This document shows positions 3,834-16,326 of a stretch of DNA of 46,909 nucleotides, piece by piece. Position 1 is the stretch's first letter; every line of letters begins with the position of its first letter. The notes below the pieces were generated by a model. It was given only the letters and a program-made list of their open reading frames with translations. It did not search any database and was not told the DNA's origin. The position numbers were made by a program, and so were the translations under genes. The DNA is from Fibrobacter succinogenes (GTDB lineage: Bacteria; Fibrobacterota; Fibrobacteria; Fibrobacterales; Fibrobacteraceae): positions 1 through 46,909 of the forward strand of contig CACWPM010000034.1 in the NCBI GenBank assembly GCA_902762795.1, read 5' to 3'.

Positions 3834-3910
3834 GCTATAGAAAAAAACTATAAAATATGCTAGAAATAAAATATTAGACAAAACTATAACGGACTTCTAT
3901 ATTTTGCATC
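3834..3910 (+). promoter_or_regulatory. Promoter block A, duplicated upstream of the ABC operon
   Basis: This 77-bp block aligns without gaps to 6340-6416. It carries -35 TTAGAC (3874-3879), an 18-bp spacer and -10 TATATT (3898-3903). Upstream is a dyad-like CTATAG-N7-CTATA element, and ACTATAAC lies in the spacer. The CTAT-type elements are plausible sites for the LysR regulator encoded at 5337. The same block precedes the DUF4418/ABC operon, so the C-S lyase and the transporter are probably controlled together. Confidence 0.6.
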
Positions 3911-3987
3911 AGTGCTAGAAGCCTGTAACTGTGAGACAATTGCAAGGATGCACAATATCTCGATGTACTGAAACGAAAGGCATTCAT

Positions 3988-5199
3988 TTGGAAGAAGAAC
4001 GAAATTTAGACTTTGATACTGTTGTAGATCGTCGCCATACCAAAAGCGTCAAGTACGATTTCTTTGTAGAATGCGGGCTTGTGAAACCGGGCGAAGATTC
4101 AAACGGCATTCTTTCGCTATGGATTGCGGATATGGACTTCAAGACAAGTTCATTCGTTCAAGATGCGTTGATTCGTACGGCGGAACACGGAATTTTCGGT
4201 TACAGTGAAAGTCAAGAAGACTACTTTCGCATCCTTCAGGATTTTTACCATCGTCGCCACAATTACGAAATTGAAAACCCTCGCTGGGTCTTGAAAACGC
4301 CCGGCGTGATGTTTGCAATCGCTATGGCCGTAAAGGCGTTCACGAACGTTGGCGATACCGTACTCATCCAACAGCCGGTCTATATGCACTTTGCCGACGT
4401 GATTGAAAGCAATAGTAGAAATGTTGTTAGCAATGATCTTGTTTACGGTGAGGATGGCCGTTATCATATCGACTTTGAGGATTTCGAAAAGAAAATTGTC
4501 GACAATAATGTCAAGCTTTTTTTGCTTTGTAGCCCGCATAATCCTGTTTGTCGCGTCTGGACTTGCGAAGAACTTTTGCGCATGGGCGAAATTTGCTTGA
4601 AACATAATGTCATTGTCGTGAGCGATGAAATTCACAACGACTTTATTTTTAAGGGAGTGCACACGGTGTTCGGTTCGCTTAGCGAAGAACTGGCCGACAA
4701 TTCGATCATCGTCACTGCGCCGACAAAAACATTTAATTTGGCAGGAGTTCAGATTTCCCATACGTTTGTGAAAAATCCAAAACTTCGCCGAGCACTTCGT
4801 AACCAAATCATTTCAACTGGCTACAGTCAAGTTAGCATTCAAGGGCTGGTCTCCGCCGAGGCCGCTTATTCTAAAGGCGATGTCTGGCTGAATGCACTCT
4901 TGAAGTATATCAAGGGAAATATTGAATATACGAGTGAATTTGTACGTAAAAACTTTAAAGGTGTAAAGCTCGTTCCGATGGAAGCGACATACCTTGCCTG
5001 GCTTGACTTTAATGGCTTGGGGCTTACGACGGCGCAAGTGGATGACCTCGTTCTCCATGGGGCTCGCCTATGGCTTAATAGCGGAACGAAATTTGGCAAA
5101 ACCGGAGCTGGGTTCCAGCGTTTGAACCTCGCGTGTCCTCGAAGTACATTGGCGGAGGCTCTCAGTAGATTGAAAGTTGCTCTTGATTCTGTCAAGTAG
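3988..5199 (+). CDS. patB: PatB/MalY-type PLP-dependent C-S lyase (cystathionine beta-lyase)
   Basis: 403 aa from TTG at 3988, which has AAAGG 7 nt upstream and gives the usual PatB start near the D-R-R-x-T-x-S-V-K motif. A GTG at 3931 would add 19 unrelated residues. It is a fold-type I PLP enzyme cleaving the C-beta-S bond of cystathionine or cysteine conjugates to thiol, pyruvate and ammonia. Seen: VDRRHTKSVKYDF, LWIADMDF, CSPHNPVCRVW, SDEIHND (Asp213, PLP ring) and TAPTKTFNLAG with Schiff-base Lys247. MalY-like proteins can also have a regulatory role. It has its own promoter (block A) and terminator and sits just upstream of a LysR gene, a common arrangement for sulfur-metabolism control. 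Confidence 0.87.
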   Translation: MEEERNLDFDTVVDRRHTKSVKYDFFVECGLVKPGEDSNGILSLWIADMDFKTSSFVQDALIRTAEHGIFGYSESQEDYFRILQDFYHRRHNYEIENPRWVLKTPGVMFAIAMAVKAFTNVGDTVLIQQPVYMHFADVIESNSRNVVSNDLVYGEDGRYHIDFEDFEKKIVDNNVKLFLLCSPHNPVCRVWTCEELLRMGEICLKHNVIVVSDEIHNDFIFKGVHTVFGSLSEELADNSIIVTAPTKTFNLAGVQISHTFVKNPKLRRALRNQIISTGYSQVSIQGLVSAEAAYSKGDVWLNALLKYIKGNIEYTSEFVRKNFKGVKLVPMEATYLAWLDFNGLGLTTAQVDDLVLHGARLWLNSGTKFGKTGAGFQRLNLACPRSTLAEALSRLKVALDSVK

Positions 5200-13224: not shown

Positions 13225-14415
13225 ATGTTAAAATTAAAGTTTTTTCTTGTGTTACTTGCTTGTAGTGTCGCTTGGGCTGTCCCGTTCAAGGTTGAAACGG
13301 TCAAGGAAGGTGGTGGAGAGCCCATTCGTGCAGGTCAATTGATTAAAGTTCATTATAAAGGATACTTGGCGGTAGACAGTTCCATTGTGAACAAAGCGGC
13401 TACGGATTCGACTGTTGAAGCCCCGTATTTTGCAAATTCCTATTACAGCGAAAAACCACTGGAGTTCACTGTGGGCGTGGGCCAGGTGATAGAAGGCTGG
13501 GACAAGGGACTTGTGGGCATGAAAGTCGGTGAAATCCGCAAACTTTCTGTGCCGTCGGTCATGGCTTATGGCGATAATTCCCTCGAAGGTATTCCGCCTA
13601 ACAGCGATTTGATGTTCGTGGTTGAACTTGTTCATGCTGAAAAGCCGCTCGAAGCAGACAAATTCCCTGCCGATGTCGAAAAGCTCAAGTGGCGCGATAT
13701 GGGCCGTGGACTCAAGGTCTTTGACGAAAAGGTCGGCGGTGGCAAGTTGAACGCTGCAGGTAACGTAATTAAGGTACATTATACGGGATGGCTTTTGTCG
13801 GGCCGCAAGTTCGGTAGCTCGAAGGATCTGGGCAAGCCGCTCGAAGCTATCATGGGTGCAGGCAAGATGATCAAGGGTTGGGAAACAGGCCTTGACGGTA
13901 TGCGTGAAGGCGGTGTTCGTTGGTTGCGCGTGTCGCCTGCGATGGGCTACGGTGCTACGGCATTCTCGATGATTCCGCCGAACTCTACGCTCTTGTTCCG
14001 CGTCGAAATGGTTTCGAGTGATGTGGACCCGGAATTGGCGAAGCACATGGACTTCTTCCCGGATACGACGCTCCTCAAGTACGAAAACGGCCCTGAAGGA
14101 CTTCGCTATGCGGTGGTAAAGCAAGGTGAAGGCGAACCGGCGCGTGCTGGTCACCGTGCGATTGTCCATTACACCGGCTGGATGGTTAATGGGTACAAGT
14201 TCGATAGTTCCCGCGATCGCGGTCAGCCGTTTGCTTTTGAACTCGGTGCAGGCAACGTCATTCGCGGCTGGGAACTTGGCGTGCAGGGTATGCTCCCCGG
14301 CGAGAAGAGAATCCTCGTGGTGCCGCCAGGCCTTGGCTACGGTAGCCGCGGCGCAGGTCCGATTCCTGGTGGCGCAACGCTTATCTTTGCTGTAGAATAC
14401 CTCGGCGAAGAGTAG
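13225..14415 (+). CDS. Exported triple-FKBP peptidyl-prolyl isomerase
   Basis: 396 aa with a signal peptide ending near Ala18 (VAWA-VP). Three FKBP_C domains lie in tandem: about 20-138, 155-265 and 285-396. FKBPs catalyse cis-trans isomerisation at prolines; here probably in the periplasm or at the surface, assisting folding of exported proteins. Domain 3 keeps the active-site pattern (HYTGW, YKFDSS, VIRGWE, GYGS, PIPGG, FAVEY). Domain 2 has Gly in place of the pocket Asp (KFGSS). Domain 1 lacks it and carries an insertion of about 18 residues. Only domain 3 therefore looks fully active. The start is set by AGGAGA before the ATG. The gene is divergent from the PorV-linked pair 72 bp away. 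Confidence 0.93.
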   Translation: MLKLKFFLVLLACSVAWAVPFKVETVKEGGGEPIRAGQLIKVHYKGYLAVDSSIVNKAATDSTVEAPYFANSYYSEKPLEFTVGVGQVIEGWDKGLVGMKVGEIRKLSVPSVMAYGDNSLEGIPPNSDLMFVVELVHAEKPLEADKFPADVEKLKWRDMGRGLKVFDEKVGGGKLNAAGNVIKVHYTGWLLSGRKFGSSKDLGKPLEAIMGAGKMIKGWETGLDGMREGGVRWLRVSPAMGYGATAFSMIPPNSTLLFRVEMVSSDVDPELAKHMDFFPDTTLLKYENGPEGLRYAVVKQGEGEPARAGHRAIVHYTGWMVNGYKFDSSRDRGQPFAFELGAGNVIRGWELGVQGMLPGEKRILVVPPGLGYGSRGAGPIPGGATLIFAVEYLGEE

Positions 14416-14492: not shown

Positions 14493-14720
14493 GAGCCGTC
14501 ATTCTGAGGGTGTAAGCCTGAAGCTCAGTCATCCTCGACCCCGTCATCCTCGGAGCCTGTCATTGTGTAATCACATGACTCGGCGGGTATCAAATGCAAG
14601 TCCACAAGTGGCCTCTCGCTTGATACCCTTGCATGTCATTCTCGACCTTGTCATCCTCGAAGCCCGTCATTGTATCTACATTTGGGAGGGAAACCATAAT
14701 TTCTCGTATAATCATTGCGT
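14493..14720. repeat. Interspersed repeat, copy 1 (GTCAT units plus structured core)
   Basis: Positions 14542-14671 match 46719-46848 over 130 bp with one visible mismatch, and weaker similarity continues to about 14720. Several GTCATYCTCGR-type units flank a core with GGGTATCAA (14585-14593) and ATGCAAG (14594-14600), followed by TTGATACCC (14620-14628) and CTTGCAT (14628-14634). The two possible stems share a base and interleave, so they cannot both form fully. Translating the repeat gives similar spurious frames in both places, so no protein is called. It lies after the FKBP gene without a T-run of its own. Confidence 0.8.
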
Positions 14721-14843
14721 AGGGACAACCTCAAAAGGTGAGTGTTGCGGCCACGATCATCCTCCGCTAGGAGGATCCATACAGTCCTAATTGCTCTTTT
14801 ACCTTTCTTGGATATGGCAAGTCCGCCGTGCGCGGACTTTTTT
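14719..14843 (+). ncRNA. Candidate small structured RNA
   Basis: A consensus -10 TATAAT (14707-14712), with a poor -35 TTGGGA 19 bp upstream, would start a roughly 125-nt transcript with no meaningful reading frame. It could fold into ACCT-CAAA-AGGT (14728-14739), ATCCTCC-GCTA-GGAGGAT (14759-14776) and a terminator hairpin (14819-14839). The anti-Shine-Dalgarno-like CCTCC is hidden in the second stem. The second repeat copy lacks the TATAAT at the equivalent place. It matches no RNA family I know. Confidence 0.3.
14819..14843 (+). terminator. Strong intrinsic terminator
   Basis: AAGTCCGC, loop CGTGC, GCGGACTT, then further T. No protein gene ends within 400 bp upstream, which is the main reason for suspecting a small RNA here. 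Confidence 0.85.
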
Positions 14844-14936
14844 GTGGGCTAAAACTGGAGGATCTGTTGAAAGTACGCTTGCTTTGGATAAATTAATTAT
14901 TGCTGTAGAATCGGAAAAACGCGAAATAGCCGTTTT

Positions 14937-15178
14937 TTTACGTAAAAATCGATGAAATACCGTTCTTTTTTACGTAAATTTTACAACAAAGTAATCAATT
15001 TTTCCTAAAAAAGCCCGTTTTGGCATCTCGGTTAGGTCGGTTAACTTAATAAAAAGGCCCTGAAATGACCCGATTTCTATAAAAAAGAAGACGAAATGGG
15101 ATGAAAAGTCAAAAATGCTTTGTACAACGTAACGTTTTTACGTAAAAATTGTCAAAAACTAAACTGAGTTTACGTAAA
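14937..15178. promoter_or_regulatory. Four phased copies of palindrome TTTACGTAAA
   Basis: The perfect 10-bp palindrome occurs at 14937-14946, 14969-14978, 15137-15146 and 15169-15178. Spacing is exactly 32 bp within each pair and exactly 200 bp between pairs. The sequences between the copies are not duplicates of each other. This looks like a cooperative protein-binding array in a gene-free AT-rich stretch upstream of the TIGR02147/lipoprotein pair. Confidence 0.6.
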
Positions 15179-15459
15179 TTTCGCCGTTCTCGCTAAATTT
15201 TAATTGTTCCCACAAAAATTTCGCCATTTCCCTCAAGAATGCCTTTCGACATCCTTTCTGCATATTTATTATCTTTAGCTATCTACTAATGACCATTGAC
15301 CAATAACTGTTGACCATCACTCGGAGTGCAGTCTAGATCCTACAACCTAACCACTAATCACTAATCACTGCGCCTCCGGCGCTCCCATTGACAAAAAGTC
15401 CATACCAAATGTTTACATAGTAGGGCAATGAGAGAGAGATTTAAATATTTTAGATATTG
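15179..15459 (+). promoter_or_regulatory. Upstream region of the second TIGR02147 pair
   Basis: Holds two AAATTTCGCC words (15176-15185, 15217-15226), a run of degenerate TGACCA and CACTAAT short repeats (15286-15368), a GCGCC-TCC-GGCGC hairpin (about 15370-15382), and TTGA-N6-GTCCAT (15388-15403). The last differs by one base from the motif found before the CAZyme genes. No gene is seen. Confidence 0.4.
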
Positions 15460-16326
15460 ATGGTTACTTTTTCTGACATAGCGGATTACCGCGACTTCTT
15501 GAAGGAATTCTACGACAGGCGCAAGGTCGAGATGCCCTTCTACAGCTACCGCATGATGGGTGATAAGCTCGGGCTAGACTCCAGCTATCTCTATCGCGTA
15601 TTGCAAAAGAAGCAGCACTTGCCTGCTCATGCGTTACCTGCGGCAAAGGAAATCCTTGCGCTGGCTGGTCGCGAGGCCGAATATTTCGACCTCCTCTATT
15701 CTGCTGCTGTCTGCAAGGATAAGACCAAACGCGAAGAACTCATGGCGAAAGCCCTCTCGCTGCGCGACGTGGAACGCCATTCTTTGCAAGAGGCAGAACT
15801 TAAACTTCTCGAAAACTGGTGGATTCCTGCGGTACGCGCCTACCTGGAATTGAACGGCGGTGTTGTAAACGTGAAGCAGATTGCGAGGGACATCTGCCCG
15901 CCGATTACCGAAGCTCAGGCTCTCGAAGCCATTGAAACTTTGAAAAGCGTCGGTCTTGTGAAAAAGCTTGTATCGGGCAAGCTTGCGTTGACCGAAGCCC
16001 ATTTGACAGTAGGGGGCCCCGAAAAGGCGAAGGCCGTGCGTAATTTCCAGCGTCAGGTGTTGAGTCTTGCGAGCGATGCGCTTGAAAACATCCCTGTCAA
16101 TGAGCGAAACATTTCTACACTGACTCTTTCTGTGGACCAGTCCTGTTTCGAGGATTTGGGGGACATGCTGAGGGAATTCCGTCGATTAGTCCAAAAAAGA
16201 GTTGACGGAGCCAAGAATCCTGATCGTGTTATGCAGCTTTCTATGGCGTTTTACCCTGTAGCCCGTAAAGGAGGGGCTACGGAAAATACTATAATAGTGG
16301 GGGAAGGTGCAGGAGATAAAAAATGA
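15460..16326 (+). CDS. TIGR02147 family protein (putative HTH-type regulator), second copy
   Basis: 288 aa from ATG 15460 (a TTG one codon earlier is possible). It has the family pattern of the 1722 gene: D-Y-R-D-F-L near the start, an HTH-like stretch YRMMGDKLGLDSSYLYRVLQ (about 28-47), and a C-terminal segment NERNISTLTLSVDQSCFEDL. No signal peptide or membrane helix is seen. The last codons overlap the downstream lipoprotein gene (ATGA), so the two are translationally coupled. Pairwise identity with the first copy looks low outside the family motifs, so these are old paralogues. Function unproven; a regulator of its partner is the simplest guess. Confidence 0.83.
   Translation: MVTFSDIADYRDFLKEFYDRRKVEMPFYSYRMMGDKLGLDSSYLYRVLQKKQHLPAHALPAAKEILALAGREAEYFDLLYSAAVCKDKTKREELMAKALSLRDVERHSLQEAELKLLENWWIPAVRAYLELNGGVVNVKQIARDICPPITEAQALEAIETLKSVGLVKKLVSGKLALTEAHLTVGGPEKAKAVRNFQRQVLSLASDALENIPVNERNISTLTLSVDQSCFEDLGDMLREFRRLVQKRVDGAKNPDRVMQLSMAFYPVARKGGATENTIIVGEGAGDKK

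Follow-up and report, generated by a model that had tools for sequence, protein, structure and literature searches.

Four-site, helically phased intergenic elements in Fibrobacter succinogenes and a candidate family of DNA-wrapping proteins

The window analysed here is a 46,909-nt stretch of a Fibrobacter succinogenes contig (CACWPM010000034.1). Between the genes for an FKBP-type peptidyl-prolyl isomerase and a TIGR02147/DUF4423 protein, it contains four exact copies of the palindrome TTTACGTAAA (Table 1). The first-pass annotation had reported these copies, their spacings of 32 and 200 bp and the small probability of such an arrangement arising by chance. Both spacings were verified; 0.12 copies of the word are expected per window, and none of 100 shuffles gave four. 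The region upstream of the palindromes also holds a 39-nt direct repeat of the GTCATCCTCGA type (14528-14566 and 14635-14673), akin to GTCAT.. tracts that recur in further Fibrobacter intergenic regions, and an intrinsic terminator (14819-14847) that is present too at the corresponding loci of RUG14562 (L102) and of genome G001 (L105).

Table 1. Genes and element features around the four palindromes of the window
Feature	Position	Strand	Remarks
FKBP-type peptidyl-prolyl isomerase gene	13225..14415	+	Upstream of the window element
Whole element (two inverted site pairs, phased flanks and core)	14895..15220	.	About 31 helical turns; extent from the A/T wave
Half-element model matches	14906-15010; 15106-15209	+; -	Profile search
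Outer left site TTTACGTAAA	14937..14946	+	Exact match
Inner left site TTTACGTAAA	14969..14978	-	Inverted partner of 14937, 32 bp away
Left inner motif ACAAAGTAA	14986..14994	+	Consensus ACAAASTAA; confers element polarity
Core	14995..15122	.	Letters not conserved among loci; 10.5-bp phasing in register with the sites
Right inner motif TACAACGT	15123..15130	+	Consensus TACARACAACAT; same strand as left inner motif
Inner right site TTTACGTAAA	15137..15146	+	168 bp, or 16 turns, from 14969
Outer right site TTTACGTAAA	15169..15178	-	Exact match
TIGR02147/DUF4423 gene	15457..16326	+	Start about 240 bp past the window element

The four sites belong to an element with a fixed plan, namely outer site, 31-33 bp, inner site, variable core, inner site and outer site, which together form an inverted repeat. 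The inverted orientation within each pair is evident from congeners whose sites are asymmetric. Because the inner motifs ACAAASTAA and TACARACAACAT lie on one strand, the element is directional despite its symmetric sites. This direction tracks GC skew weakly and gene direction not at all, and strand or replication polarity was rejected as its explanation.

The genome of the window (G000; 3.93 Mb in 89 contigs) has 44 exact copies of TTTACGTAAA versus seven of the reversed word, an excess of about sixfold. Seven of the 44 are lone words outside elements, a number that matches the control prediction. Reading around the copies identified 20 quartets built on the same plan, and a half-element profile search added a 21st (C6:22180-22479) and found no orphan half in the genome. 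All 21 elements are intergenic, and each is matched as two inverted halves. Spacing is strict: the inner gap takes only values of 136, 146-147, 154-157, 166-169 and 177-179 bp (54 elements from seven genomes), each one helical turn from the next (Rayleigh p~1e-20, n=54). The concern that the palindrome might be common throughout AT-rich intergenic DNA with no preferred spacing is thus not borne out, and the earlier observation is correct and much larger in extent than first noted. One element (L019:4873-5104) seems short of a 32-bp step, with a single site doubling as the inner and outer site of its right pair.

The profile search detected elements in 22 of 80 Fibrobacter genomes, with copy numbers ranging from 0, as in most of the genomes, to about 23. 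Beyond the genus, a generic pair pattern is not in excess, and no description of elements of this kind in Fibrobacter was found in the open-access literature. Viral contigs searched with the pair pattern gave a few isolated single-pair matches and zero quartets, so a phage origin of the elements was rejected. Macrodomain clustering, suspected from the contigs of G004, was also dismissed, since 27 loci from three species are scattered across contigs C1-C5 of G063, all round the chromosome. The suggestion in the first-pass annotation of a chromosome-level site would be in keeping with the 21 dispersed loci of G000.

The DNA between the palindromes had been described as unrelated. This holds for its letters, which are not conserved among loci, but not for its composition, in which A/T recurs at 10.5-bp intervals that keep register with the sites. 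A/T trinucleotides have a period of 10.25-10.5 bp across the whole element, and spectral power at 10.5 bp is 29.6 in elements versus 2.45 in other intergenic DNA of the same loci and 2.06 in shuffles; it stays at 15.2 after the sites are masked. The core is phase-locked to the sites (R=0.93-0.95, and 0.93 when the core is taken by itself after trimming of the inner motifs). Around pair centres, A/T peaks fall at 0, +/-10, +/-20 bp and so on, and the wave is continuous through the pair centre and fades about 62 bp outside the centres of the outer pairs, which gives a phased stretch of about 320 bp or 31 turns. Phased A/T patterns in nucleosomes and in the gyrase motif have been read as marks of protein-bent or protein-wrapped DNA (PMC6379681). 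The phased sequence of the elements looks as if built for wrapping round a protein, and we infer wrapping from this periodicity. Cooperative binding on one helical face, as first proposed, would be consistent with the whole-turn gaps and the 10.5-bp phasing.

The word found at the sites is characteristic of each species. It is TTACGTAA in 60 of 80 sites of G000, TTACGTGA in 66 of 72 sites of G001 and TTACGTCA in 27 of 36 sites of G004 (species-by-letter association for these three genomes, p=2e-42), and TTACGGGA in G041. Twelve G000 loci have an orthologous element beside the same neighbour genes in at least one other sampled species; their cores, where compared, are recognisably homologous, yet the letter is that species' own. 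The window locus has TTACGTAA here, TTACGTGA in G001 and mixed words in RUG14562, while a single pair is left in G006 (L101). Non-orthologous cores of one genome are 0.543 identical versus 0.525 when shuffled (n=377 pairs). Since within-genome cores are unrelated, the elements are probably not transposon copies, and they are not recent copies of each other. Sites that are kept and changed together are as expected if one protein reads all of them. About 80 sites in one genome have changed one letter in concert at loci where the surrounding DNA stayed homologous, which would document, as few natural systems do, a joint shift in specificity of a protein and its targets across the genome.

The neighbour genes of 58 elements are arranged in ordinary proportions (13 convergent, 29 tandem and 16 divergent) and encode unrelated housekeeping functions, including RsmB/F-like, Ddl, RNase D, TrpS, ClpP, GpsA, MnmE and OmpA proteins, among others. 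The targets of a regulon operator share function and orientation, whereas these neighbours are heterogeneous. Thus, the role of operator for the TIGR02147/lipoprotein pair, which the first-pass annotation put forward, finds no support as a role of the elements in general. The presence of an element at fixed loci varies between species. Empty loci, in two cases compared by eye with filled ones, are short intergenic regions with ordinary terminators, and the element often occupies the terminator's place; no target duplication is visible at the two loci, where the intergenic DNA is rearranged too. A promoter or terminator role was rejected because terminator-like hairpins occur in just 7 of the 58 cores.

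In G000, an open reading frame (ORF) of about 280 amino acids (G000:C3:124177-125004) lies between two elements with the same word, an arrangement that recurs in G004, G055 and G088 with proteins 79-88% identical. The flanking elements are direct and 1.27 kb apart in G000 and G004. The gene is multi-copy and missing from most element loci. A motif-free scan for 10.5-bp phasing places strong phased stretches next to nearly all homologues of the ORF, even those without an ACGT site. By a uniform criterion (a phased stretch within 720 bp of the ORF), 45 of 49 loci of the ORF family have such an element versus 5 of 200 random blocks of G063. Most gene-side elements are inverted pairs at whole-turn distances (p~2e-27, n=70 spacings), usually upstream of the ORF. 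Within the locus, the two flanking elements have similar cores (identity 0.68 in G000, L017:4952-6533, and 0.92 in G004, L064:5000-6553), pointing to duplication or gene conversion.

The word differs from one protein clade to the next (GGCGGTGAA, GCTACTAAA, GGGTACCAA, GGGGATTAA, TAGGACTAA, GTACCTATAA, ACGTACTAA and others). Protein identity correlates with word similarity (Mantel r=0.72, 0/5000 permutations) for words assigned by eye from the output of the phasing scan, which is a weakness of the test; the correlation persists without the TTACG clade (r=0.70, 0/5000) and is slightly higher for the N-terminal half. In four cases, the gene-side word recurs in the orphan elements of the same genome: TTACGT[AC]A in G000/G004, TTACGTGA in G067, TTACGGGA in G041 and GCTAC[TA]AAA in G063, where two unselected 15-kb stretches had one orphan three-pair element each. 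The protein family is present too in genomes that lack TTACG elements, and its members there have other words. G001 has about 20 TTACGTGA elements and no close homologue of the protein in an assembly 94% complete (best match 38%, with other words alongside), and G124 has elements and zero homologue matches. This gap could reflect missing sequence or a diverged partner; alternatively, the linked protein may not be needed.

The query member of the linked family has no Pfam or NCBIfam match. Its AlphaFold model (mean pLDDT 88.5) comprises an N-terminal coiled coil and a C-terminal alpha/beta domain; Foldseek gave no match at E<0.001, and Foldseek/VIA no clear full-length relative. The C-terminal domain of the predicted structure is a weak fold match to Bax1 (Z 8.0, rmsd 3.0, 98 residues), TnsA (Z 7.4) and Vsr (Z 6.8), and it aligns to the C-terminus of the PADLOC candidate defence protein PDC-S68 (E 7e-24). 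E168, D204 and E219 are invariant across 30 sequences, in agreement with the conserved acidic residues of PD-(D/E)XK folds, and the last part of the putative motif is WEH instead of E-X-K. The linked protein is therefore predicted to combine a coiled coil with a PD-(D/E)XK-like domain and is a candidate nuclease-like protein. It differs from PDC-S68 and the PD-(D/E)XK proteins mentioned in being a stand-alone protein of about 280 amino acids with an N-terminal coiled coil and DNA elements of its own.

Several known systems share some of these properties. The half-sites ACGTGAAA and ACGGGAAA resemble those of parS and NBS, which are also short, sequence-specific chromosomal sites. parS is a single 16-bp palindrome, TGTTNCACGTGAAACA, whereas the elements have TTACGTNA half-sites in inverted pairs, with four sites in two pairs at whole-turn spacing within a phased element of about 320 bp, and the linked protein is not a ParB. 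ParB/Noc is likewise a protein family with diverged DNA specificity (PMC7383237). One strong HTH_ParB match exists in each of 30 congeners, with or without elements, and an extra weak match in five genomes, G000 not among them, has no consistent relation to elements. ParB/Noc, suggested by the half-site resemblance, was rejected on this distribution of paralogues; the partition-like site of the first-pass annotation is unsupported as a ParB-type site, since element-rich genomes have the same single full-strength match as other genomes. The 13-bp matS site, with 23 copies in 800 kb of the Escherichia coli Ter macrodomain (PMC3330122), is comparable in that a short palindromic site, dispersed in about 20 copies, would have one protein reader, as predicted here. 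In contrast to matS, the elements lie all round the G063 chromosome instead of being confined to one region, with four sites per locus and an inferred phased wrap. For LrpC and RemA, wrapping of promoter-upstream DNA round an oligomer has been proposed (PMC8481266); the linked protein is a different one, and RemA sites are poorly conserved whereas the words here are nearly invariant per genome.

Taken together, the window element is probably an orphan within a family of DNA-wrapping systems with sequence specificity, whose binder would be the protein of about 280 amino acids; its cognate gene is most likely G000:C3:124177-125004. The mechanism proposed here is read from sequence in respect of binding, wrapping, dimer geometry and function. 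The four palindromes would be contacts of a single wrapped nucleoprotein element, with one dimer per inverted pair, the sites of which are three turns apart with a two-fold axis between them. Both pairs would lie on one helical face, a whole number of turns apart, and the A/T tracts every 10.5 bp would let about 320 bp bend or wrap round a complex of two or more dimers. The protein probably controls its own promoter, and the same protein probably occupies the approximately 20 orphan elements, including that of the window, as fixed architectural or regulatory nodes.

An alternative, which appears unlikely, is that each element is the solo leftover of a selfish mobile unit with the layout element-gene-element, in the manner of solo LTRs or MITEs, the nuclease-like gene having been lost through recombination between flanking elements. 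The gene does lie between two direct elements in G000 and G004, and the orthologous locus of G001 has one element and no gene; differences in occupancy between species, the many families with unrelated words and the patchy copy number (0-23) also fit such an origin. However, cores and spacers within a genome are no more similar than shuffled sequence, whereas MITEs or solo ends share their interiors, the sites shift letter in concert at orthologous loci, and the two filled and empty loci compared by eye show no target-site duplication, though their intergenic DNA is rearranged as well. Dissimilar cores combined with near-perfect sites, spacing and phase indicate copies maintained by selection. 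It is also doubtful that the elements serve defence or self-recognition, in a system where chromosomal elements would tether or license their own nuclease for action against incoming DNA. At a density of about one element per 190 kb, self-marking would be thin, although the match of the C-terminal domain to PDC-S68, the invariant residues corresponding to the E...D...E motif and the fast diversification of words, which resembles conflict, all argue for it.

Control of each neighbour gene through a loop, here of the TIGR02147 gene, is improbable to a similar degree. Intergenic placement, mostly upstream where the family's own gene is concerned, would fit such control, as would the phased element with a different word that precedes the TIGR02147 homologue of Fibrobacter sp. 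UBA1765, but the neighbours have neither a common function nor a preferred orientation, convergent genes flank 13 of the 58 elements, and in species that lack the element the TIGR02147 gene still has its proximal promoter region of TTGACA type. Strong DNA gyrase sites resemble the elements, as does nucleosome-positioning DNA, in a helix-phased alternation of A/T and G/C that is read as wrapping, and the periodic A/T arms of the E. coli gyrase motif have been ascribed to wrapping (PMC6379681). The gyrase motif nevertheless is 130 bp long, has a central part for cleavage between arms of 10.75-bp period and lacks a strict 8-bp word, whereas the elements are more than twice as long at about 320 bp, peak at 10.25-10.5 bp, are continuous through the pair centre and carry four exact words that vary by species and are tied to another gene family; gyrase is moreover universal and the elements are not, which makes this identity very improbable. 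Finally, each pair is a foldable inverted repeat and could in principle act as an RNA or single-strand hairpin of the REP/BIME kind. Stem pairing is not kept, however: unequal letters at the variable position break it in 14 of 40 pairs of G000 and 9 of 18 pairs of G004. Gaps of whole turns and unbroken phasing characterise duplex DNA, there is no Rfam match, and hairpins are accordingly the least credible account.

Under the preferred reading, in which the linked protein wraps the elements, an unannotated multi-copy protein family gains a putative DNA partner and a testable activity, and the data point to site-specific DNA wrapping at defined bacterial chromosomal loci. Whether this reflects a large unrecognised bacterial family is evenly balanced; in such a family, each protein would form a sequence-addressed, nucleosome-like particle on its own phased elements, several such systems, each with a different address, could coexist on one chromosome, and address and protein would evolve in concert.

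In G001 (L053:3283) and in G061 (L203), a TTACGTGA element has at its centre a pair of the GCTAC type, a word that belongs to another family, as if sites for two proteins could coexist in one element. TAGGACT-type elements (flanks of L196 and L192) are tandem arrays of up to six pairs with 64- and 137-bp spacing. The element of UBA1765 (L152:1786-2086) has four pairs with the word GCTTATAAA and is located close to the position of the window's element. A human-gut contig labelled 'Bacteriophage sp.' (MT839528.1; L303) encodes a homologue with 32% identity to the linked protein and has, after its gene, a phased stretch at about 3840-4140 (power 26); thus, the system may extend beyond Fibrobacter.
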